Shown here piece after piece: positions 51,498 through 64,000 of a DNA stretch of 64,000 nucleotides. How positions within the stretch are numbered: the first letter of the stretch is position 1; the number at the start of each line of letters is the position of its first letter. The position numbers and the translations under genes are program-made. This DNA comes from Methanocalculus taiwanensis. GTDB lineage: Archaea; Halobacteriota; Methanomicrobia; Methanomicrobiales; Methanocorpusculaceae. The stretch is from the NCBI RefSeq assembly GCF_024372745.1, contig NZ_VOTZ01000002.1:124001-188000 (forward strand), read 5' to 3'. A model generated the notes under the pieces. It ran no database searches. It had not been told where the DNA came from and saw nothing but the letters and a program-made list of their open reading frames with translations.

Positions 51498-52463
51498 ATG
51501 ACGCCTGATACAGCCATACCAGAAATTCCCCGGAAAGTTGAGGAGATCAGATCTCTTATTAATCAGTACCTTGTTGGAAAAGATGAATTAACAAAACTGA
51601 TTACAATTGCACTTCTCTCCGACGGGCATATCCTGATCCAGGGGGTTCCGGGAACTGCGAAAACGACGATTGTAAAGGCATTTGCAAAGATTCTCGGATA
51701 TACATTCTCCCGTGTCCAGTGCGCAGTCGATACGCAGCCGGCTGATATCCTCGGCCTTCGGATCTATGACCAGTCAAAGGGAGAGTTTGTTCTCAGGAAA
51801 GGACCTATTTTTTCGAATATTCTCTTAATCGATGAGTTAAACAGGCTGAACCCGAGAACACAGAGTGCGTTTGTCGAGGTGATGAGCGAGCGGCAGGTGA
51901 CAATAGAAGGTGAAACACACCCCCTGCCAAGCCCGTTCTTTGTAATGGCAACCCAGAATCCGTATGAGTTTGAAGGGACATTCCCACTCATCGAGGCGCA
52001 GAAAGACCGGTTTATGTATAGTTTCATCTCCGAGTATCTCAATTCCGAGGACGAACTGGAAGTACTCAGGCGTCTGGACTCAGGAAAACTGAACTGGGAC
52101 ACCTATGCAACATCACTCGATCAACACAAAGGTGGTGTCGATCTCATCTTCCTTCGGAACTGTGTCGAATCCATTCATATAGAGGAGCGGGTTGCCATGT
52201 ATATCAGGGATCTGGTTGTTGCAACGAGGCAGAACGGAGATATCAGTCTCGGGGCGAGCACCCGTGCATCGATTGCATTCTATAAAGGGAGCAAAGCTGT
52301 CGCTGCACTCAACGGAAGGACATTTGTAACCCCGGATGATGTGAGGGAGATTGCATTCCATGTACTGCATCACCGCTTGATTCTTCGCCGGGAAGCTGAG
52401 ATCGCCGGAATTACACTCGAAGCGGTCATCAATGAGATTATCCGGTCTGTCGAGGTGCCCTGA
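51498..52463 (+). CDS. MoxR-family AAA+ ATPase
   Basis: A 321-residue AAA+ chaperone-like ATPase. Walker A GVPGTAKTT at residues 49-57, Walker B ILLIDELNRLNPRTQ near 112, sensor 1 MATQNPYEFEGTFPL near 150, and the sensor 2 region in a C-terminal lid (SLGASTRASIAFYKGSKAVA, FVTPDDVREIAFHVLHHRL). MoxR ATPases remodel or activate partner complexes, often VWA-containing DUF58 proteins such as the next gene. Confidence 0.92.
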   Translation: MTPDTAIPEIPRKVEEIRSLINQYLVGKDELTKLITIALLSDGHILIQGVPGTAKTTIVKAFAKILGYTFSRVQCAVDTQPADILGLRIYDQSKGEFVLRKGPIFSNILLIDELNRLNPRTQSAFVEVMSERQVTIEGETHPLPSPFFVMATQNPYEFEGTFPLIEAQKDRFMYSFISEYLNSEDELEVLRRLDSGKLNWDTYATSLDQHKGGVDLIFLRNCVESIHIEERVAMYIRDLVVATRQNGDISLGASTRASIAFYKGSKAVAALNGRTFVTPDDVREIAFHVLHHRLILRREAEIAGITLEAVINEIIRSVEVP

Positions 52464-52464
52464 G

Positions 52465-53700
52465 GTGCTTCCAACCCCCCTCTCCCGTGCGTTACTGGCA
52501 GCTGGCCTCCTCACCATCGTTGGCGGCGGGGCGATGGCTAGTACGCCGGCAGTTGTTACCGGATCGGTACTGCTGCTCTTCCTCTTCTCCCGTGCCATCC
52601 TCTTCCTCAAAGCCGAAAAACAGGTTATTGCGACATTCCATCTGAAACGTCACTGTGATAACCTCATCGTCAGGCAATACGGAATTATTACAGTCACCCT
52701 CTCTGCAGACCTGGATCAACCGCATTCATCTCTCATCTCGATACATGACATGCCGGGTCCTGGTTTTGAAGTCCCCGATAACCCGGTGTTTGATGTTGGC
52801 GAGACATCAGAACTCACGTACCGGATACAGGCACGTGCCCGCGGCACCATCTCTTTCCATGGGGCAACTCTGGAGATGAGTGATCGCTTCTTCTCGACGG
52901 CTATCATCTTCACCCGCCCGGAAGATTGTATGCCCGAGGTTCAGGTTCAGCCACGGGGATCCCCGGTTGTCCTGAATGGAGAATCCTTAGGATATGGAGA
53001 ATCAACCTCACGCAGGCTCATATCATCATCCGGAACCATGGTCAGATCATTTCGTGAGTATATGCCAGGAGATGATCCCCGCCAGATAGACTGGAAGATA
53101 ACAGCAAAGACAAAACGTCTCACCATCCGTGAGGCATATGCACAGGCAGGCGAGATCCCGGTTGTGGTACTTGATATGCCTCTTGATTTTACTATCGCAG
53201 AACAACTGATCGGATTTGCTGCCGGTGCTGCCGAAGATTCATTAAAGTTATCCCATTCCGTCTCGCTGCTTGCGATTGCAGGAGGGAATGTGATCCGGTT
53301 TCTGCCCGATGAGCGGCAGGCATCCCGGTTGCTGGCGGCTATCCGCGATCTCCCTCCAACTGCCCGTTGGAACCAGTTCTATCACTATCTGTCAGAGACC
53401 GATTCAAGGAGAGTGAAGCTCTCCCTCCCGGCGGGCTCGCCACTCCACACATGGTATGATGCGGTGATCCAGAACCGTGGCATACCCTCCTTTGAAGCTG
53501 AATGTATCCGTGCCTTTGCCAGAACGAAGGGAACTGCTGTGTTACTCTTCAGTGCAGCAGATGGCGATACCAGCCATCTTGGTATGGTGGCACGGGCTGC
53601 CAGGCGGATCGGGCTCTCTGTCCACCTGAGAATTCCCGCGCATAGTGCAGTATCAATTCGTCCAGGTGCCTTTCCGATCGATACTATCGAGGTGATCTGA
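52465..53700 (+). CDS. DUF58 protein (MoxR partner)
   Basis: About 411 residues. Two N-terminal membrane segments (ALLAAGLLTIVGGGAMAS, ATPAVVTGSVLLLFLFSRA) are followed by a soluble beta-sandwich and the DUF58 signature (MVRSFREYMPGDDPRQIDWK, then TKRLTIREAYAQAGEIPVVV), leading to a degenerate VWA-like domain. The GTG at 52465, one base after the moxR stop and eight bases after CGAGGTG, is the likely start; an ATG at 52432 lies inside moxR. Confidence 0.88.
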   Translation: MLPTPLSRALLAAGLLTIVGGGAMASTPAVVTGSVLLLFLFSRAILFLKAEKQVIATFHLKRHCDNLIVRQYGIITVTLSADLDQPHSSLISIHDMPGPGFEVPDNPVFDVGETSELTYRIQARARGTISFHGATLEMSDRFFSTAIIFTRPEDCMPEVQVQPRGSPVVLNGESLGYGESTSRRLISSSGTMVRSFREYMPGDDPRQIDWKITAKTKRLTIREAYAQAGEIPVVVLDMPLDFTIAEQLIGFAAGAAEDSLKLSHSVSLLAIAGGNVIRFLPDERQASRLLAAIRDLPPTARWNQFYHYLSETDSRRVKLSLPAGSPLHTWYDAVIQNRGIPSFEAECIRAFARTKGTAVLLFSAADGDTSHLGMVARAARRIGLSVHLRIPAHSAVSIRPGAFPIDTIEVI

Positions 53701-53701
53701 G

Positions 53702-54148
53702 ATGGAAAGAGAATTGTTGCTCCGGGGTATCTTCCTTGGCATCTCCGGTGCCGCCCTCATCTTCCTCGACCCTCTCCTCTGGATAGCCTGGCTGGTTGCG
53801 GTATCCGGGATGGTATATGCCAGGCGAACAGGTGAGGGAGCGGTTTTGGAACTCTGTTTAGGGGTGCCCTGTGTGGTAGCTGCAGGATACCTCGCCCCAA
53901 TCCTCTCGGGCATCCTGATGTTCCTGTTGATTGCATCAACATGCGGATCAGATCTCTTCCTGACAGGGGATTGGTATCTCTCTCTTGCTCTGTTGATTAC
54001 AGGCCTTCTCCTGATCCTGCTCGTTCTGCCGATAATGGATCCATTCATCGCCGCACTCATCGTCATTGCCGGATCCGGAGTTGGTGGTGGTAGTATCTAT
54101 CTTTATGAATATTCCCTGCACCGCTGGGTCAGGGGGGAACATACATGA
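53702..54148 (+). CDS. Membrane protein of the MoxR/DUF58 operon
   Basis: A 148-residue protein with about five membrane segments and few polar loops (for example SGAALIFLDPLLWIAWLVAV and LALLITGLLLILLVLPIM). No domain recognised. It follows the DUF58 gene after one base and overlaps the next gene by four. Confidence 0.7.
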   Translation: MERELLLRGIFLGISGAALIFLDPLLWIAWLVAVSGMVYARRTGEGAVLELCLGVPCVVAAGYLAPILSGILMFLLIASTCGSDLFLTGDWYLSLALLITGLLLILLVLPIMDPFIAALIVIAGSGVGGGSIYLYEYSLHRWVRGEHT

Positions 54149-54999
54149 AGGTACCAAATCCACACAAACAGCTCCAGCCACTCGTCTCATATTTTTCAGA
54201 TCAGTTTCGAGATCTGATCCAGACTGTCCGGCATCCCGGTGATTCAGATGAGGCGAAAGCATCGTTTGCACTCTTTATCGCAGCTGCAGCTTCCTTCGCC
54301 CTCGTCTTCTTCACTGACCGCGCAGATATGACCAGTGCCACGCTGGTGCTCTGCGGGTTTGCCTGTTTTATTGCAGGTATCTTCCTCCTGACATTTCACC
54401 GTGGAGGGACGATAGCACCCGATATCGCTGAGCGGCTTACTCCGGGGTGCCGAATCGGCCTTGCCCGTATTTCCGCAGATCTCGGGGTGGATGGCGATGC
54501 TGTCATTCTGCCGGAGGGTGAGAGTATTATCCAGTTCAATGCATCAGGTGCTTCAAAGATCCCAAATGGAGCTCTCCAGACATCACTTGTCCTACAGGAG
54601 GGATCAGTTGGTGTAACTATACCTCCACTCGCTCTCCCGCTCTGGGATCATCTCCGCAAAGAGTATGGGCTCACCACACCGGATGGTGTCGAAGCATCGC
54701 TCTCTGCCATCCGCGAAGTGTTGACGGTTGCAAGCGAACTCGCTGAGACAATGGCAACCTCGATTGAGGGGGACGATCTGGTAATTGAGATCAGCGGTTA
54801 TCACCTTTTTGGAGAATGCATGATAACCCAGGCTGAATCACCGAAATGCTGCACGATGTTTCCGTGCGCTGCCTGCGGACTGATCGGCGTTATCCTTGCC
54901 GATGCAACGAAATCAGCCTGGTGCTATGATAGGATCGTCCTCTCCCCCGAGAGCCGCACGATCACAATCACTCTCAGGCGTTATGAGCAGGGGATGTGA
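54145..54999 (+). CDS. Two-helix membrane protein with soluble C-terminal domain
   Basis: A 284-residue protein with two membrane helices at residues about 34-75 (ASFALFIAAAASFALVFF, TLVLCGFACFIAGIFLLTF) and a long cytoplasmic or outer domain that ends in a cysteine-rich patch (SPKCCTMFPCAACGLIGVI). The ordered cysteines could bind metal. Last gene of the operon. No family name recognised; similar genes follow DUF58 in related methanogens in my expectation, which is unverified. Confidence 0.68.
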   Translation: MKVPNPHKQLQPLVSYFSDQFRDLIQTVRHPGDSDEAKASFALFIAAAASFALVFFTDRADMTSATLVLCGFACFIAGIFLLTFHRGGTIAPDIAERLTPGCRIGLARISADLGVDGDAVILPEGESIIQFNASGASKIPNGALQTSLVLQEGSVGVTIPPLALPLWDHLRKEYGLTTPDGVEASLSAIREVLTVASELAETMATSIEGDDLVIEISGYHLFGECMITQAESPKCCTMFPCAACGLIGVILADATKSAWCYDRIVLSPESRTITITLRRYEQGM

Positions 55000-55030: not shown

Positions 55031-56014
55031 TCAGGCAGCTCTCCCGACACTGATCCAGAGATGGAGATCACGATAGCTGCTATTCACAAGCTCTGCCGGG
55101 GAAAGACCGGGTTTGGGGAGGGCTTCATCAAAGAGGAGGAACTGTATCCGGTTGATCTTTGTATCCCGAATCGTGAAGTTGAACCGTTGTTCAACAGTTT
55201 CATTATGAGCAATCTCTGTTGTGAAAGATCCTATCGGAACAGATGAGAGAATACGTGAAGTATTTGTTTTCGTATCGAACTGCTGGTTAAACCCATAGAT
55301 CATCGCAGTATAGGTGACGTTTCTGTATTCGTGGTTGCCGATCCCGATGATCACAAACTGCTCAGTGCCTGCGCGGAAGTTCGTCGGATAATCTGCCGCT
55401 TTCCCCTTCTCTCCGAGGATATAAAATTCCGTGAACTTCTCCCCTTCCTTTGGAACGACGATCACATAGATGGTGGTCCCTATTGCAAGGATGATTGCTG
55501 CGATCAGGATGATACTCAGGGCGCGGTCAAGGCGGGTGCTCTCTTCCGGTAAAAGTTCATCACGGATCCCGTCCTTCACCTCTCTGAGTGGGATCCGCAG
55601 GCGTTTCTCTTCCGGGAGGATCAGGCGCCGGTATGCCGCGATTGCAGCCATTGCAAGGGCAAAGAAAACAAGCGCGGTGACGATCGGATCAAGCCGGATA
55701 CCCCAGGGTGTGTAGTTCAGGCCAAGGCCGATTAATGGGACGACTGCTATTGAGAGGCCAAAAGAGAGTGCGATCCGCTCGATCCAGTCGAGGTCGTCAT
55801 CTGATGGGAAGAGGGCTGCGATTAAGAGGTAGCCGGGGATAAAGAGGATGAAAGGGAGCGCAAAGACCACCCGGAGCGGGGTATCCTGTAAAATCGGGAT
55901 ATAGATGCAGCCGATAGTGCCAATAATCCACAACAGAGCGACTTTCAGGTCGATTGGGATTAATTTTGGGTTAAGCAGATCAACGACGATATCAGCTGGC
56001 TCTGGTGGCATCAC
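55031..56014 (-). CDS. DUF1616 membrane protein
   Basis: A 327-residue protein with four to five membrane segments in the first 190 residues (VALLWIIGTIGCIYIPILQD, LRVVFALPFILFIPGYLLIA are characteristic of DUF1616) and a C-terminal outer beta-sandwich (NVTYTAMIYGFNQQFDTKTN) with several NxS/T sites, probably glycosylated. DUF1616 proteins are common in methanogens near surface-polysaccharide or S-layer genes. It converges with the MoxR operon, 31 bases away. Confidence 0.78.
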   Translation of the reverse strand: MMPPEPADIVVDLLNPKLIPIDLKVALLWIIGTIGCIYIPILQDTPLRVVFALPFILFIPGYLLIAALFPSDDDLDWIERIALSFGLSIAVVPLIGLGLNYTPWGIRLDPIVTALVFFALAMAAIAAYRRLILPEEKRLRIPLREVKDGIRDELLPEESTRLDRALSIILIAAIILAIGTTIYVIVVPKEGEKFTEFYILGEKGKAADYPTNFRAGTEQFVIIGIGNHEYRNVTYTAMIYGFNQQFDTKTNTSRILSSVPIGSFTTEIAHNETVEQRFNFTIRDTKINRIQFLLFDEALPKPGLSPAELVNSSYRDLHLWISVGRAA

Positions 56015-56154: not shown

Positions 56155-56916
56155 ATGAAAGAACGGACAGTACTATTACTGCTTGTTGCCTCATTTTGTA
56201 TTATTGGATCAGCTCATGCTGCAACAGTAATGGAGATCGACTCGGGGAATGCAGACGGATCCTATCTCCAGGTACATGTTGCGGAAATTGCATCTGCAAC
56301 AAGCCTCCAGTTCGATCTCACCTACGATCCGGCAGTTGTGAGTATCGCCGGGATCAGGAAAGCAGCCGGATACGAAGGTGTTTCGATGACAACGAATACG
56401 AATGTCGCCGGGGCCGCACGTGTGCTCATCATATTCCCTGATCCGGTGACGATACAGGAACCGGCAGGCGTTGTTGAGATAGCATTCTCTCCTGTTGCTT
56501 CCGGAACAAGTACACTTTCGCTGACAGATGCACGCTGGAGTGATTTTCCTGCATTTGCCTCCATCACTTTTGATGAGGTGAAGAGCGGCACCGTCACAAG
56601 CACGATAACACCGAACGCGCCGGCAACCGCGGTTCCATCATACTATGAGGCATCATCAGGCTCCTCATATGATCCCGGAACCTTCACCCTGCCCGAAGAT
56701 ACCGTAGAGATACCAGCAGTCCCTGAACAGCCATTTACGCAACCTGCAGGAACGCAGATACCAGCCGAACCATCTCTTTCAGCTACGCCGGCAACTGAAG
56801 AACAACCAGGGGAATCACCTCTGCCAGGAGTTCCGGATGCAACCCCGGCACCGGCACCGGTGGCCGCTCTCCCGATTATTCTCGCCGCTATCCTTCTATA
56901 TCGAAGAAACCAATAG
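56155..56916 (+). CDS. Exported cohesin-domain protein with C-terminal membrane anchor
   Basis: A 253-residue protein: signal peptide (residues 1-23, ending SAHA), a single cohesin-like domain at 24-150 (VHVAEIASATSLQFDLTYDP, then VVSIAGIRK, GVVEIAFSPVASGTSTLSL), a Pro/Thr/Glu-rich spacer at 160-235, and a terminal hydrophobic helix (PVAALPIILAAILLY) followed by RRNQ. A single cohesin on a membrane stalk is a plausible docking site for a dockerin-bearing protein such as the next gene product. Transcribed in the same direction, with a 72-base gap after it. Confidence 0.75.
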   Translation: MKERTVLLLLVASFCIIGSAHAATVMEIDSGNADGSYLQVHVAEIASATSLQFDLTYDPAVVSIAGIRKAAGYEGVSMTTNTNVAGAARVLIIFPDPVTIQEPAGVVEIAFSPVASGTSTLSLTDARWSDFPAFASITFDEVKSGTVTSTITPNAPATAVPSYYEASSGSSYDPGTFTLPEDTVEIPAVPEQPFTQPAGTQIPAEPSLSATPATEEQPGESPLPGVPDATPAPAPVAALPIILAAILLYRRNQ

Positions 56917-56997
56917 CAATACGGTTTCTTATCCATTTTTCCAGATCATATGTATTAAATCTAATGAGAAGTAGAGATAGGTCTGAGTGTGATCGGA

Positions 56998-59900
56998 ATG
57001 GACACACGTTTCCTTATTCTCTCTCTGGCACTGATTCTGCTGCTAACAGCTGGAACAGTGGCTGCAGCACCATTTGCCGGTGAACCGCAGCATGTAATAA
57101 TTGTAATGAAAGACCGACCCGCTGATGATGCGGATTATCTCGAACTGAATGCTTTTGCTGAAGCATCGCAACGGGATATCATCTCATCTGTCAATCGGAT
57201 GAGTGTGGATGAGCCGAGATCTCTCTGGTCGGTGAATGCGATTGCCGCGACCCTCACCGAAGAGCAGGTGAAGCAGGTCGCCGCCCGGCCGGATGTGGCC
57301 CGGGTAGTGCCTGATCGGATCGTTACCCTGGATCTCACCAAAGACACTGGTTTGGCAGAGAATGGTGACCGCCGTATGCGATTCTTCAGGCCTGCAACTG
57401 ACAATGAGATCGAATGGATCGATCCGGCCTACCCCTATGAAGAAGACATTGCCTGGGGCGTCTCCTGGATCGAAGCGCCTGAGGTCTGGGCAAACGGGTT
57501 TGACGGAACCGGGGTAACAGTCGCGGTTATCGATACCGGGATCAAGGCCGATCATCCGGATCTTGCCGGAAAGATCGTCGGTTGGGCAGATCTCGTCAAC
57601 AGCCGCACCGATCCCTATGATGATCATGGCCACGGCACACACTGTGCAGGCACCGTTGCCGGGATGGGCGCAGGTGGTATCTACACAGGGGTTGCACCGG
57701 GTGCTGACCTGATTGGGGTAAAGGTTTTTAATTCGGGTGGATCCGGAAATACCTCTACTGTTCTTGCGGGTTTTGAGAAAGCTGTTGAACTGGGAGCGGA
57801 TGTGATCTCATATAGTGGGGGAGCAATTGGTTTTGACTCTGACTGGGATGAAATTGTGCTGGATAGCTCTGAAGGTATTGATATTCCCATAAACGTGTCC
57901 AATTTTAATGATGGCTTTGATCCGACGTTTATCCTTCTCTGGCTGGAGTCACGAAATAATGAGGAACTTGAAATCACCATGCGCCAGCCAAATGGTTCGG
58001 TCTATCAGGGTGTCGATTGTGACTGGTATGATACACCATGTCCTCCGGAATGGGGTATGCTCAAATATATTGGTAATGCTGCCCTTGCTCCAGGTGAATG
58101 GACACTCACTATCCAAAATCCTTCACTGAATACAAGCGAAAAAATATGGCATTCAGGAACAGGGTATGACCTGAATAATATCCTGTACCAGAGATTTAAC
58201 CTGACAGATCATATGGAGGGCCTTGAATCCCTCACATTCAATATCTCCACCAGATATGCCATGGAAACCTCATATGATTATGGCTATGTGGAGGTGCTGG
58301 ATACTCAGTCACAGCAATGGTTCCCACTCCTTGTTCTGAATGGTCGGGGAAGCGGAGTTTATTCGGTTAATCTCACACCTTTCGTTCTGGGTCAGGCCCC
58401 ACCACCTGGACCGATGCCACCAATCGGGCCATACAGTGTCGAGCAGACTACCGGGCCGACGTATCTCGATCTCCGGTTACGATATGAGACCGATTCCAGT
58501 ATTATATGGGATGGATGGTTCATCGACTGGATGGCAATCCCCGAGATCGGATTCTATGATGATGCATCCGGAGATGCAGGATGGACTGCAGATCCCGCTG
58601 AAGGTGGCTGGAGCCGGATCAGTGATAGTGATGAGATCTATTATGAATGGCTCATATGCTATGCAGATAACGGGACCAGCCTCACGTCCCAGTCTGCAAA
58701 CAGGATCGTTGAAAATGGCACGGTCTTTGTGACATCCGCTGGCAATAAAGGAGAATATGGTCTCCGGAGCATCGGCGCCCCGGCAGCTGCAGAGAAGGTG
58801 ATTGCTGTTGGTGCGACTGGACAAAGTCAGGATTATATCGCTTTTTCGAGCAGCCGCGGTCCAGCGGGATGGGGTAATAATCTGCGTATTAAACCGGATG
58901 TGACAGCACCAGGACAGTATATCCTCTCCACTTCAGTCAATGGCGGATATACGTATATGTCCGGCACCTCGATGGCATGCCCTCATGTCTCCGGAATTGC
59001 CGCATTGCTACTCCAGGCAAACAGCACGCTCTCTCCGAATGACGTGAAGACGATCATCACTGAGACGGCAGTCGATCTCGGCCCTGAGGGCCCGGACTAT
59101 GATTACGGATATGGCAGGGTAAGTGCCTGGGCGGCAATCGAAGAAGTGACGCCGCTTGTTCCACCCACATATGATGCACCCATGCTGCATGCCGGGTTCG
59201 GATTTGGCAATCTGAAGATGGGTGAGCCGAATGTGATAACCGCGATCTCGTGGAACGGGACACCACTTGATGGTGAAAATATCCACTTCAGAATCTGGAG
59301 TGGCCAGCAGGAGTTCCTGAACACAACAAATGTAACAAATGCCCATGGTATGGCGACGGCATCATTTGTGCCAAATGCATCCGGAAGCTATTCGTATGAT
59401 GTCCGGGATGCCTACGGGAATTCCGTGAGTGGCTCAATCATGACCCGCACTACTGCCAGTCCAAGGGAACTGTTTCTCTTTGATACCGTGAATAAAGACT
59501 ATTATACGGTTCCAAATGAGACTGTCCCTATAAAGTACACTCTTGTCGATCCGCAGACTCTGGATCCATATGCAGGGGATGTGCGGATGGTGATCAGCGC
59601 TTCGATCTTTGGCCAGGAACAACCAGTTTGGGTTGAATATCTCAATGAGACAATCACCCCGGTGAATGGGACAATTGAGAAGGCGTTTAATGTCTCGGGG
59701 ATGGAAACAAACCGGGCAGAGATTGTACTTGCTCCAGTTGCAAATCTCACACAGGCCCGCTTCTATGGAGATATTAATGTCAATACTAATGATTTTGTCA
59801 ATCAGGAAGTGAAACCCTCCGTCACAATCGCAGAGAAGAAAGGGAATGCAACACTTCTTGTGAAACAGTATACGTTCCTTGATGCGCAGCCTGTACCGGA

Positions 59901-62124
59901 CGGGATCTTCCAACTTCCGGTCGTCTGGCTCTATGAGGTGGATGTCAAAGCTCTCTCCCTGCAGTTCCCCGATCAGACTGCTGAACTCTTATCAGGCATG
60001 ATACAGAAGCTGACGCCGGAATATGCCGATCTCTTTGCCGAGATCCAGAATATGCAGGAAAATACCCGGTTAATTCCATATGAAACAAAGAACGGAATCG
60101 GGAAGGTGACCGTGCCGGTGCCGGATGGCGCATACCTGGGAGTTGTACTCTCACACTGGTATGATGATGACGACCATAACGGACCATACTCAGAATTATC
60201 TGAGTATCAGGCTCTCATCATAGTGGATCCCTGGCCTTTTGAGTTCCATCCGAGTGCCCCGTTGGTTGAGCCCAACCGCGATCTCTTCATCTCTGGTGAC
60301 TGGAAGGGTGCCTTTGCAGAGGATGCACGGAGCATCGCTCCAGGAACCGAGATGAATCTCACCTGTTATCTTCAGAACAAGGCAGGAGAGCCTGTCGCAG
60401 GAACAGTGTATCTCTATACAAGCGATTCCTCGGCTATCGTGACAACCGGATCTGACGGGTATGGACATGCAACCCTGCCTGCGGTTATCAGGTTCGAGGA
60501 TGCATGGGGGTACAATCAACTCCAGGTGGTCGGCCTCTCCGGGGATGCCTACAGCTATACCTATGTCTCCCCGCCATACGAATGGGTGACCATCACCGGC
60601 GAGTTTACTGATAGTGGAAACTCCGGGGTGCTCCGGGCAGGAACTGCCGTCTACACCCCGGATGGTGAGCCGATCCCGATGCCAGGAATCTTTGAGGTTT
60701 CCAGAACCGGTGTTGTCGAGAGCTATATGGGCTCCCAGTGGTGGGGTGCGTCTGCATCACTCCTGTCATCATATTTGACTGGAACAGGATTCTTTGCGGA
60801 GACCGTCCCATATGGCGCATACGAGACCACCGTTGCCGTGAAGGACTGGTTCTGGCGTGGCGGCTATAGCCAGGGGAACTGGTGGGTTTACTCCACGTAC
60901 CTTGGTGCAACTCCGCTTACAATCGCAAACCCGCCACCTGAGTTTGCAGAGCATGCAGGCTGGATCAATGTCAATGTCCAGATGGCAGATGGAGCATCTG
61001 GAGTGCCGATATATCTCGTCTATGATACTGTTGGTCCGGACAGGTACATGACCGGCTTTTTTGGCGACTTAGCCAGTTCTTCTACAATGAGCACATCTGA
61101 GAGCATATACACCGATATGTTCGGCGCAGCGGATATCCAGACAACCGGTCCCGATGGCAGTGCCACCCTGAAGATGTATGTGCCTGAGAACAGCCAGGTC
61201 TGGTGGGAGATCGGCGGCGGAACGCCTGACCGCGTCTTTACGACACAGTCCGGCTACACCATCCAGGATACACCCCCTGAGCCGGTTGCACCTGTTGCGA
61301 ACTTCATTGGTGTGCCAGCCACTGGCCCTGCCCCCCTGACCGTCAGGTTCACCGATACTTCAACGGGAGTTCCGACATCATGGACATGGAACTTCGGGGA
61401 TGGAACAAACTCAACTGAACGGCACCCAACGAAGATCTATCAGAATCATGGTGTCTACACCGTCAGCCTGACTGCTACAAATGAACAGGGGCAGAACACC
61501 ACCACAAAGGCGGGCTACATCACCGTCCTCCAGCCAACGACGATCATGGCCGGAAATTCTGTGATCCCGACAGGCATGAACAGGACAACCGGAGTGTCTG
61601 TTTCCAATATGCAGAATATGACTGCAGTTGGTTTGAACCTGACATTTGATCAGACGCTGGTACAGCTCACCGCAGTTCGCCCGAATGCATCGGTTGAGAA
61701 CAAAGTTGAAGGATTTGTGACAGAGATTGACAACACCACCGGAAAACTCAACCTCTCCATGACACTCCAACCAGGAATCGATCAGGGTGCTGAGCCGATG
61801 CAGATTATTGATCTGGTATTTGCTGCAGAACAGAAGATCGGATCATGTCCAATCACCTATACCAGATCGGAGTTCAGCGGAGGTGTATCCGGTGACGTGC
61901 AGCCATTTGTTATTGTTGATGATGGATCACTCCGGGTACGTATGCGGGGTGATTTCAATGACAACGGCAGGATCGATATTGGGGATGTCGCACGGGTTGC
62001 CTATATGGCGGCCGGGCTTATCACCGTAGATCTTGAGGCAGATTTTAATGGAGATGGTGTTGTTGATGCCGCAGATGCAGCAAAGATTGCATATGTCTAT
62101 GTGGGGAAGTACCATGAACTTTAA
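56998..62124 (+). CDS. Giant subtilase (S8) with catalytic-domain insertion, PKD, cohesin and dockerin modules
   Basis: About 1,708 residues (an in-frame GTG at 56989 would add three). Signal peptide, an N-terminal propeptide-like region, then an S8 protease whose triad is intact: Asp in VAVIDTGI, His in DDHGHGTHCAG, Ser in MSGTSMACPH, with the oxyanion Asn in SAGN. Some 285 residues with a PPC-like and an immune-inhibitor-A-like beta-sandwich are inserted between the His and Ser blocks. Long beta-rich modules follow, then PKD (about 1435-1510), cohesin (about 1517-1650) and a dockerin with two EF-like loops (GDFNDNGRIDIGDV, ADFNGDGVVDAADA). Secreted; presumably Ca2+-dependent. Many NxS/T sites. 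Confidence 0.9.
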   Translation: MDTRFLILSLALILLLTAGTVAAAPFAGEPQHVIIVMKDRPADDADYLELNAFAEASQRDIISSVNRMSVDEPRSLWSVNAIAATLTEEQVKQVAARPDVARVVPDRIVTLDLTKDTGLAENGDRRMRFFRPATDNEIEWIDPAYPYEEDIAWGVSWIEAPEVWANGFDGTGVTVAVIDTGIKADHPDLAGKIVGWADLVNSRTDPYDDHGHGTHCAGTVAGMGAGGIYTGVAPGADLIGVKVFNSGGSGNTSTVLAGFEKAVELGADVISYSGGAIGFDSDWDEIVLDSSEGIDIPINVSNFNDGFDPTFILLWLESRNNEELEITMRQPNGSVYQGVDCDWYDTPCPPEWGMLKYIGNAALAPGEWTLTIQNPSLNTSEKIWHSGTGYDLNNILYQRFNLTDHMEGLESLTFNISTRYAMETSYDYGYVEVLDTQSQQWFPLLVLNGRGSGVYSVNLTPFVLGQAPPPGPMPPIGPYSVEQTTGPTYLDLRLRYETDSSIIWDGWFIDWMAIPEIGFYDDASGDAGWTADPAEGGWSRISDSDEIYYEWLICYADNGTSLTSQSANRIVENGTVFVTSAGNKGEYGLRSIGAPAAAEKVIAVGATGQSQDYIAFSSSRGPAGWGNNLRIKPDVTAPGQYILSTSVNGGYTYMSGTSMACPHVSGIAALLLQANSTLSPNDVKTIITETAVDLGPEGPDYDYGYGRVSAWAAIEEVTPLVPPTYDAPMLHAGFGFGNLKMGEPNVITAISWNGTPLDGENIHFRIWSGQQEFLNTTNVTNAHGMATASFVPNASGSYSYDVRDAYGNSVSGSIMTRTTASPRELFLFDTVNKDYYTVPNETVPIKYTLVDPQTLDPYAGDVRMVISASIFGQEQPVWVEYLNETITPVNGTIEKAFNVSGMETNRAEIVLAPVANLTQARFYGDINVNTNDFVNQEVKPSVTIAEKKGNATLLVKQYTFLDAQPVPDGIFQLPVVWLYEVDVKALSLQFPDQTAELLSGMIQKLTPEYADLFAEIQNMQENTRLIPYETKNGIGKVTVPVPDGAYLGVVLSHWYDDDDHNGPYSELSEYQALIIVDPWPFEFHPSAPLVEPNRDLFISGDWKGAFAEDARSIAPGTEMNLTCYLQNKAGEPVAGTVYLYTSDSSAIVTTGSDGYGHATLPAVIRFEDAWGYNQLQVVGLSGDAYSYTYVSPPYEWVTITGEFTDSGNSGVLRAGTAVYTPDGEPIPMPGIFEVSRTGVVESYMGSQWWGASASLLSSYLTGTGFFAETVPYGAYETTVAVKDWFWRGGYSQGNWWVYSTYLGATPLTIANPPPEFAEHAGWINVNVQMADGASGVPIYLVYDTVGPDRYMTGFFGDLASSSTMSTSESIYTDMFGAADIQTTGPDGSATLKMYVPENSQVWWEIGGGTPDRVFTTQSGYTIQDTPPEPVAPVANFIGVPATGPAPLTVRFTDTSTGVPTSWTWNFGDGTNSTERHPTKIYQNHGVYTVSLTATNEQGQNTTTKAGYITVLQPTTIMAGNSVIPTGMNRTTGVSVSNMQNMTAVGLNLTFDQTLVQLTAVRPNASVENKVEGFVTEIDNTTGKLNLSMTLQPGIDQGAEPMQIIDLVFAAEQKIGSCPITYTRSEFSGGVSGDVQPFVIVDDGSLRVRMRGDFNDNGRIDIGDVARVAYMAAGLITVDLEADFNGDGVVDAADAAKIAYVYVGKYHEL

Positions 62125-62125
62125 A

Positions 62126-62134
62126 TTTTTTTTT
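62126..62134 (+). terminator. T-tract terminator after the subtilase gene
   Basis: Nine consecutive T residues immediately after the stop codon, then ATTTAT. A U-rich tract at this place is a typical archaeal transcription end. It separates the subtilase transcript from the following gene. Confidence 0.6.
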
Positions 62135-62249
62135 ATTTATGTGAGGTGAAGAGAAGAACGTTTATCTGTCTTTAGGATATGTATTAGAACATCACCAACT
62201 ATGGAGTGTGTGTGAACCTATCGTGATTACTGAATGGAAGTGAAGAACT

Positions 62250-64000
62250 ATGATGATTGGAAAGAAGACGATTGCACTTATTCTCATCTTTTCCTGCCTG
62301 ATCGGCATTGCGTTTGCAGGTACAGGCGGAGAGGAGGTGGAAGCAGGTATTCCCACCGGGACACTGTTCTCCACCACTGATGAGGAGACCGGATTTGATG
62401 ATCTGGAACAGGCAGATCCGGATGTACTGACTGCGGGCGATGACCAGGCAGAATTGAACTTTGAGGCGCTTGTACAGCAGAATGCTGATTCAAAGCTGGC
62501 TTTAGGCTCTGTGACTGTTGAAGGGGGACAGAATGCCGAGATTCTGGTATCTGTTGCAAACCTCACCGGTGCAACAGGGATTGGATTTGATGTAATGTTT
62601 GATCCGACTGTCCTTGGGGTTGAAAATGTCACTGCTACGCCACAGGCTCCTGTGAATACGTCTGTGACATGGCATGTCGAGACATACCATTTTCACGAAG
62701 GTTTCCTCAGAGTTTCAATGACTCATGATTCCTTAACTGTCGGACAAACACCTCTTGCAGTTGCGAAGATTACCTTCAACACAACACGTGTCGATGAGGA
62801 AGTCACCAGAGAATTATGGCCACAGGGAGAATGGAGCGCCACTGAGTTCGATCCGGTGCCCTTCAGGTATTCAGTACCGGGAACTGTGACGATAACACCT
62901 CCGCCGCCACCGGTACTCCCTGATCTGACCGGAGTTTTAGATCCAGCCCCGCCTCAGTTTGTTAAGAAATATCAGAACGGTTCGATATTCTTAGATCCAA
63001 CCTTCGTCATCCGGAATATCGGTCTTGCACCCGTTACTGAAAGTGAAGATTTTGATGTCGACGTATTCTTTGTAGGGCAAAAGGGATCCTGGACATTGAC
63101 TGAGAGGATTGATGCAGGCAGCAACTTTACCTTAAAGACAGATGCTTCCATCTACAATGACTCCCGTCCGATTGAGGTTCGGCAGAGAGGGAGGATCCCC
63201 GGAGTCGAAACGACACTTGTTATTGAAGCTGGAGCTGACATATCAATTGGTCTAAAAGAGATCGCCATTCATATCAACCCGGATCGAAGAGTAGAGGAGA
63301 TTCGGTATGATAACAATAACCTCTCTACCCAGGTAACATTGACATATCCCGATCTTCAGCCGGTACTTGATACCGAATTAATCCAGGGTATCTCAAGCAG
63401 CGAAACTGTGATTCATGAAAATGTTCTTCCCGGGACTCACAGAGTTACCTATGGAGTGGAAAATGATGGTGGAGTCTTCTCAGTACCTACATATCTCCGT
63501 GTTGCACGGGATGGAGTAAACACGTTCTATTCGATCCCGGCTCTCCAGCCAGGCGAGAACTGGACCCAAAGCGAAACGATCACCCTTGATAAGACAAAGG
63601 GCACAAAGACGTATTCTGTTGAAGTGAACTCATATGGACCGGCCCAGGAGGAACCAACCGAGCGTATTCTCCATCCGGATCAGGGTCAGCTTTCTAAGAC
63701 CATCACCTCGGATTATGCCTCATTCAAACCCGTGACGGTAGTATTTGATCATATTACCGGAGCAGTTGGCGATACCAAGGTTCTTCCGGTCACTCTCACG
63801 AATGTCTCAACCGGAGCTCCGGTTCGATCATTTTCCATTCCGGTAACATATGACCCTGCTGTCTGTATCTATCAGGGTGCAATTAATATTGCTCCTGGTG
63901 TGAGTGTCACAAACCCAGGTTATGGACGTTTACTCGTCACAGGTACTAATGTAAATTATAATTTCAACATAAAGGTTGCCGATCTCCAGTTCAGGGCCCA
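62250..64000 (+). CDS. Exported multi-domain cohesin protein, incomplete at the window end
   Basis: An uninterrupted frame from ATG 62250 (or the adjacent ATG 62253) to the window edge, 583 residues so far. Signal peptide (KKTIALILIFSCLIGIAFA), then a first cohesin-like domain at about residues 85-215 (VTVEGGQNAEILVSVANLTG, IGFDVMFDPTVLGVENVT), two CARDB-like adhesion repeats at about 225-470 (PDLTGVLDPAPPQFV; YPDLQPVLDTELI), and a second cohesin beginning near 490 (AVGDTKVLPVTLTNVSTG, PVTYDPAVCIYQG). Likely a scaffold for dockerin-bearing partners. The C-terminus, and so any anchor or dockerin, is out of view. Confidence 0.8.
   Translation, partial: MMIGKKTIALILIFSCLIGIAFAGTGGEEVEAGIPTGTLFSTTDEETGFDDLEQADPDVLTAGDDQAELNFEALVQQNADSKLALGSVTVEGGQNAEILVSVANLTGATGIGFDVMFDPTVLGVENVTATPQAPVNTSVTWHVETYHFHEGFLRVSMTHDSLTVGQTPLAVAKITFNTTRVDEEVTRELWPQGEWSATEFDPVPFRYSVPGTVTITPPPPPVLPDLTGVLDPAPPQFVKKYQNGSIFLDPTFVIRNIGLAPVTESEDFDVDVFFVGQKGSWTLTERIDAGSNFTLKTDASIYNDSRPIEVRQRGRIPGVETTLVIEAGADISIGLKEIAIHINPDRRVEEIRYDNNNLSTQVTLTYPDLQPVLDTELIQGISSSETVIHENVLPGTHRVTYGVENDGGVFSVPTYLRVARDGVNTFYSIPALQPGENWTQSETITLDKTKGTKTYSVEVNSYGPAQEEPTERILHPDQGQLSKTITSDYASFKPVTVVFDHITGAVGDTKVLPVTLTNVSTGAPVRSFSIPVTYDPAVCIYQGAINIAPGVSVTNPGYGRLLVTGTNVNYNFNIKVADLQFRA

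Follow-up and report, generated by a model that had tools for sequence, protein, structure and literature searches.

The window analysed here is a 64,000-nucleotide stretch of Methanocalculus taiwanensis DNA, positions 124001-188000 of a contig that extends to 196910. An earlier note on this window had described three neighbouring exported-protein genes at its end (A, B and C) as a candidate cohesin-dockerin set around a surface protease, and all three ORFs are present where it placed them (Table 1). The window edge cut the row short; on the contig it comprises six exported-protein genes, A-B-C-D-E-F, with D, E and F following C on the same strand in the remainder of the contig. All six run on one strand with intergenic gaps of about 10-125 bases, and their co-transcription is therefore likely. 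The host is a methanogen, as had been stated, with mcrA found in the genome. The divergently oriented DUF1616 gene is a possible accessory; a DUF1616 gene is also found close to the cluster in 10 more genomes of the order and, beyond the order, in G425. Upstream of the cluster lies a row of MoxR-type ATPase and DUF58 genes (window 51498-54999, plus strand), with DUF58 homologues recurring near the cluster in 8 further genomes and MoxR genes in 4; this row may help in assembly or maturation.

Table 1. Features of the locus, in window coordinates unless a contig handle is given.
Feature	Position	Strand	Description and support
DUF1616 membrane protein, divergent neighbour	55031..56014	-	PF07760 2.4e-104
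Gene A	56155..56916	+	253 aa, signal peptide, cohesin, linker, membrane segment; Pfam and orthologues in relatives
Gene B	56989..62124	+	1711 aa secreted subtilase, PKD, cohesin, dockerin; Pfam S8 7.8e-57
B cohesin, aa 1519-1648	61543..61932	+	Pfam Cohesin
B dockerin, two Ca-loop repeats, common type 'DIGDVARVA..ADAAKIAYVYVGK'	61942..62121	+	PF00404 25.8 bits; PDB dockerins 1e-4
Gene C 5' part, aa 1-583 of 1733	62250..64000	+	Ends at window-equivalent 67451; whole gene L020:10250-15451
C cohesin 1, aa 79-215	62484..62894	+	Pfam Cohesin
C cohesin 2, from aa 487, truncated by window end	63708..64000	+	Pfam Cohesin
Ten further dockerin proteins, B/F-type dockerin	L023, L024, L025, L026, L027		

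Gene A was found to encode a membrane-stalked single-cohesin protein, as the earlier note had it: the cohesin at about aa 24-150 (Pfam Cohesin, 25.5 bits against a cut-off of 24.1) is followed by a Pro/Thr-rich linker and a C-terminal hydrophobic membrane segment. B is likewise the subtilase with both cohesin and dockerin that had been described, and additionally carries an I9 prodomain; its cohesin scores 24.6 bits in Pfam, and its dockerin reaches 22.3 bits by hmmscan and, in the genome search, 25.8 bits, above the PF00404 cut-off. AlphaFold modelling of the B cohesin-dockerin tail gave a mean pLDDT of 32 from an alignment of only two rows. The catalytic triad D182/H215/S661 and the oxyanion residue N586 are in place in B, and the S8 catalytic residues are intact in the aligned relatives, barring one contig-end fragment and the S8 of G063, which is not orthologous. 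In a PADLOC search, B gave a match to a generic subtilase model and a weak one to IetS, and no match was obtained for C.

C had been recognised as a multi-cohesin CARDB protein, and the Cohesin score of 51.9 bits across two stretches, together with CARDB, bears this out; its gene continues 3.4 kb beyond the window. Extending the search for dockerins past base 64000 revealed one at the C-terminus of C and another on F, and C was found to contain a TED_complement domain (PF07678, 8.3e-11) with the thioester motif YPHGCPEQ (CPEQ, Cys909), the only TED in the genome. The Cys, Glu and Gln of C-x-E-Q are invariant in 18 of 18 archaeal sequences, and also in a 40-sequence alignment that includes other prokaryotes. 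The proposal of a cohesin-dockerin set around a surface protease stands, with the thioester/alpha-2-macroglobulin protein C, and its own different dockerin, having been missed as the core. With C as the core and its dockerin distinct, the unit is therefore better described as a protease, a complement-like protein and membrane-anchored cohesins.

Methanomicrobiales include cultured species such as Methanogenium marinum, and the core fold of C was modelled with AlphaFold on the M. marinum orthologue (residues 103-852, locus L080) in place of the window's own protein. This model matches complement C4, C3 and C5, CD109 and A2M with a best E of 6.3e-20, over about 600-700 columns and at TM-scores of 0.3-0.45. 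It is confident in the beta-TED-beta part and poor in the first ~160 residues, and its alignment held bacterial A2M rows, which may bias it toward the A2M fold. Beta domains (MG/CUB) around the TED are predicted in this orthologue model. No bait region was identified in C. Long A2M-type proteins with an intact CVEQ are also encoded on Asgard contigs (L079, L089 and L090; Harpocratesius, Heimdallarchaeota).

D starts ten bases after C and encodes 259 aa with a signal peptide and a membrane tail. It has no match in Pfam or the PDB and is regarded as cohesin-like on profile-profile comparison only (HHalign against the A, B and C cohesins, 93%, E 3.5e-7); its positional counterpart in G437, a genome outside the order, matches PF00963 at 22.6 bits, just below the cut-off. 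E, of 1151 aa, has an N-terminal domain predicted to be of cohesin type, followed by Ig and PKD-like parts and a C-terminal membrane segment. The N-terminus matches PF00963 in 8 of 12 orthologues (best 3e-6), reaches 97% in profile-profile comparison and matches a PDB scaffoldin cohesin at 1.8e-4; the window genome's own E scores 16.0 bits with PF00963, under the cut-off of 24.1. F is a 278-aa protein with a dockerin. Homologues of F (e.g. in G055 and at L080:1675-2922) carry a C-terminal membrane segment instead of the dockerin, giving two attachment modes for one domain.

Genome-wide listing yielded four Pfam-level cohesins (PF00963), all in the row (one each in A and B, two in C), and 13 clear dockerin proteins, a count from which two weak dockerin-like matches on contig C1 (E 0.5) were excluded. 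Twelve of the 13 dockerins, those of B, F and ten others, are of one type (DIGDV..VA..A in repeat 1, DAA..IA..YV in repeat 2); that of C differs, with GSDARDIA in both repeats. Both repeats are present in the C and F dockerins, which score 17-21 bits, below the PF00404 cut-off. One type in 12 of 13 and a distinct one on C make two orthogonal joints likely, judging from the module sequences: cargo would dock to the cohesins of C, A or B, and C to the membrane anchors D and E. This docking logic is scaffoldin-like, with a single cargo dockerin type and a different dockerin on the scaffold for its anchor. The 13 clear dockerin proteins yielded no match to a glycoside hydrolase family, and a cellulosome was rejected on that ground, in keeping with the view of the earlier note that the set is non-cellulosomal. 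Two dockerin proteins on different contigs (L025:7110-12158 and L027:268-4611) have identical 60-residue tails, through recent duplication or an assembly effect.

To follow the cluster across the order, 232 Methanomicrobiales genomes were queried with the TED, giving 25 strong carriers; matches at E about 4e-4 in G031 and G034 were left out of the counts. A D profile (E<1e-25) picked out exactly the same 25 genomes, and C is directly followed by D and then E in every one of them, although the carriers are related and so do not amount to 25 independent trials. A subtilase adjoins C in 22 of the 25, and three clusters have none beside C; in G081 an S8 protein lies downstream of C, and the S8 protein of G063 is not a B orthologue. 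In G120 (L076) the place of the subtilase is taken by a 920-aa gene for a non-catalytic protein, in which a dockerin accompanies CARDB-like repeats and several cohesin-like stretches. Within its own genus, the cluster occurs in just 3 of 8 genomes. Outside the order, G360 encodes a subtilase-dockerin, a TED-dockerin and an E-like protein, with a short anchored protein in the position of D that had no match in a Pfam search. G437 has a single 2668-aa ORF combining S8 (1.6e-44) with TED (7e-12), followed by a dockerin protein and then a near-threshold cohesin protein, and G425 has a TED, a dockerin protein, a PGF-CTERM protein, DUF1616 and an S8-dockerin. A 4.98-kb contig filed under Nanohaloarchaea and possibly mis-binned (L077) carries a TED-dockerin and then a second dockerin protein.

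The sequences provide the modules, the intact triad, the invariant thioester motif, the conserved gene order and the two dockerin classes; the pairing of individual cohesins with dockerins, thioester formation, B activation and the target are what we infer. The reading we favour, and consider rather probable, is a surface-anchored, scaffoldin-like thioester protein docked beside a protease that either acts as its activator or is held in check by it. C would be scaffoldin-like but built on an alpha-2-macroglobulin/complement core, with its dockerin plugging into the cohesin-type domains that D and E hold at the membrane, while its N-terminal cohesins, together with those of A and B, would accept the common dockerin type through which B, F and ten other secreted proteins dock. 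Assembly through two such cohesin-dockerin joints is quite likely, judged by sequence, and docking of this kind would set the active subtilase B adjacent to C. On functional coupling of the two proteins we lean, with some reserve, towards acceptance, on the basis of synteny and one fusion. The likely mechanism would be proteolysis-gated covalent capture, in which cleavage of C exposes the CPEQ thioester and the exposed thioester bonds the nearest nucleophile, on a foreign protease, a virus or the surface of another cell. B may serve as an on-board activator or may be a protease restrained by C. What fits best, and what these data suggest, is a device for capture or defence at the cell surface and not one for digesting cellulose.

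The alternative that survives best, which we regard as possible though not probable, is that C acts solely as a pan-protease inhibitor, in the manner of bacterial A2M or of the cellulosomal dockerin-serpins. C would then shield the proteins docked at the surface against B itself or against proteases of foreign origin, and B would be cargo and not an activator. Such a role is consistent with the A2M-superfamily fold of the M. marinum model and with the report that dockerin-borne serpins and Dpi guard cellulosomes against proteases (PMC12484212), and subtilase-TED synteny is equally expected of a protease and its restrainer. However, no bait region or trap chamber was seen in C, the S8-TED fusion fits regulated activation at least equally, and the diversification of the cluster exceeds the needs of housekeeping inhibition.

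Across 23 genomes, divergence of the C dockerin was found to track that of the cohesin-type domains of D (partial r 0.65) and E (partial r 0.64; p 0.0005) after background divergence was removed, with controls near zero or negative, and this co-divergence is present in both classes separately. Between the window genome and G018, identity is 89% for the A cohesin, 91% for the B cohesin, 97% for the B dockerin, 80% for C cohesin 1, 87% for the F dockerin and 76% for the TED; it is 44% for the C dockerin, 28% for D and 23% for the E cohesin, and C cohesin 2 is likewise low at 44%. The C dockerin, D and E modules of G018 are nearer to those of G081 (56, 38 and 44%) than to the window genome's copies, whereas its TED is nearer to the window genome's copy than to that of G081. 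On the DNA the C dockerin adjoins D, which adjoins the N-terminus of E, and the intervening segments co-vary in one class too. Since exchange of one contiguous segment could explain the pattern, it is taken as support for binding of the C dockerin to D and E, and its use as proof was rejected as too strong. Between G119 and G120 (L071 and L076, one genus), A, F and the flanking genes share 79-94% identity, against 24% for C, 23% for D and 26-28% for the N-terminal part of E at the same locus; these are two alternative C-D-E versions at one locus. Such patchiness and exchange would be typical of conflict or recognition systems.

A tentative and somewhat doubtful proposal is that the cluster is a prokaryotic analogue of the complement cascade, in which the docked subtilase would act as convertase and the docked thioester protein would covalently tag attackers, possibly viruses, other cells or exoproteases, with a diversifying C-dockerin/D/E set. 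We think it unlikely that the cluster is a covalent adhesin or self/non-self device whose thioester ties the cell to partners or surfaces, with C-D-E exchange setting specificity. The contrast between G119 and G120, and the lectin-like, Kelch, NHL, PKD and beta-helix domains on other dockerin proteins, would suit such a device, but the exchanged part takes in the entire thioester protein and not a recognition tip alone, and the conserved active protease is left unexplained.

The ten other dockerin proteins carry among their cargo a second S8, one partial S8, a papain-like C1 with a lectin-like domain, and NHL, Kelch, beta-helix/NosD and PKD domains. Several dockerin proteases, counting B, might point to a complex with a nutritional role, comparable to a cellulosome but degrading protein and releasing peptides. 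This we consider very doubtful: a thioester protein that is invariant and has D and E after it in every case would be left unexplained, no uptake genes were seen among the cluster genes and their immediate neighbours, and Methanomicrobiales methanogens are not known as protein degraders. Most improbable is a structural surface module, in which the cohesins and dockerins would serve to fix proteins to the S-layer and neither the TED nor the protease would play an active part; the large Ig, PKD and CARDB content and the C-terminal membrane segment of E fit it, but the strict conservation of catalytic residues and thioester motif does not.

Archaeal cohesins and dockerins have long been without an established function, and archaeal alpha-2-macroglobulins without a known partner. 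A conserved cluster that links the two with a protease whose catalytic residues are intact offers a testable role for each, and if the protease activates the thioester, the docked thioester protein and its subtilase would form a prokaryotic parallel to complement. Archaeal alpha-2-macroglobulin/TEP homologues were described in 2021 as secreted TED proteins that carry CxEQ and occur in Halobacteria and Methanomicrobia; endoproteases occur in some of their neighbourhoods, and a role in immunity or conflict was proposed (PMC8416519). Dockerins are not mentioned in the main text of that paper. In contrast to those homologues, the TED protein here is a cohesin-dockerin component with invariant D/E synteny and usually a dockerin-bearing subtilase. 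In a search covering part of the literature and some of the possible spellings, no paper was found joining archaeal alpha-2-macroglobulin homologues with cohesin-dockerin, and therefore the combination looks new, its components being already known.

Multi-cohesin and dockerin scaffoldin-like proteins of ANME archaea are presented with their function open in PMC9012536, which also cites verified archaeal cohesin-dockerin binding; unlike the present cluster, they are given no link to a TED or a subtilase in the passages considered. Halobacterium NP_280653.1, a subtilase-dockerin read as cellulose-related (PMC2605481), resembles B as a secreted archaeal S8 with dockerin repeats, and differs from the B cluster in being reported as a lone domain architecture. 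The cellulosomal serpin PinA, together with Dpi and the dockerin subtilisins (reviewed in PMC12484212), likewise place a protease inhibitor and subtilisin-like proteases on one docking system; here the A2M/TED family takes the place of the serpin or Dpi, in a conserved gene pair and one archaeal fusion. Like the clostridial cellulosome, the cluster has cargo with one type of dockerin, a cohesin scaffoldin with a different dockerin and membrane-anchored cohesins; unlike it, its 13 dockerin proteins are without glycoside hydrolases, its scaffoldin core is A2M/complement-like, and its cargo contains proteases.
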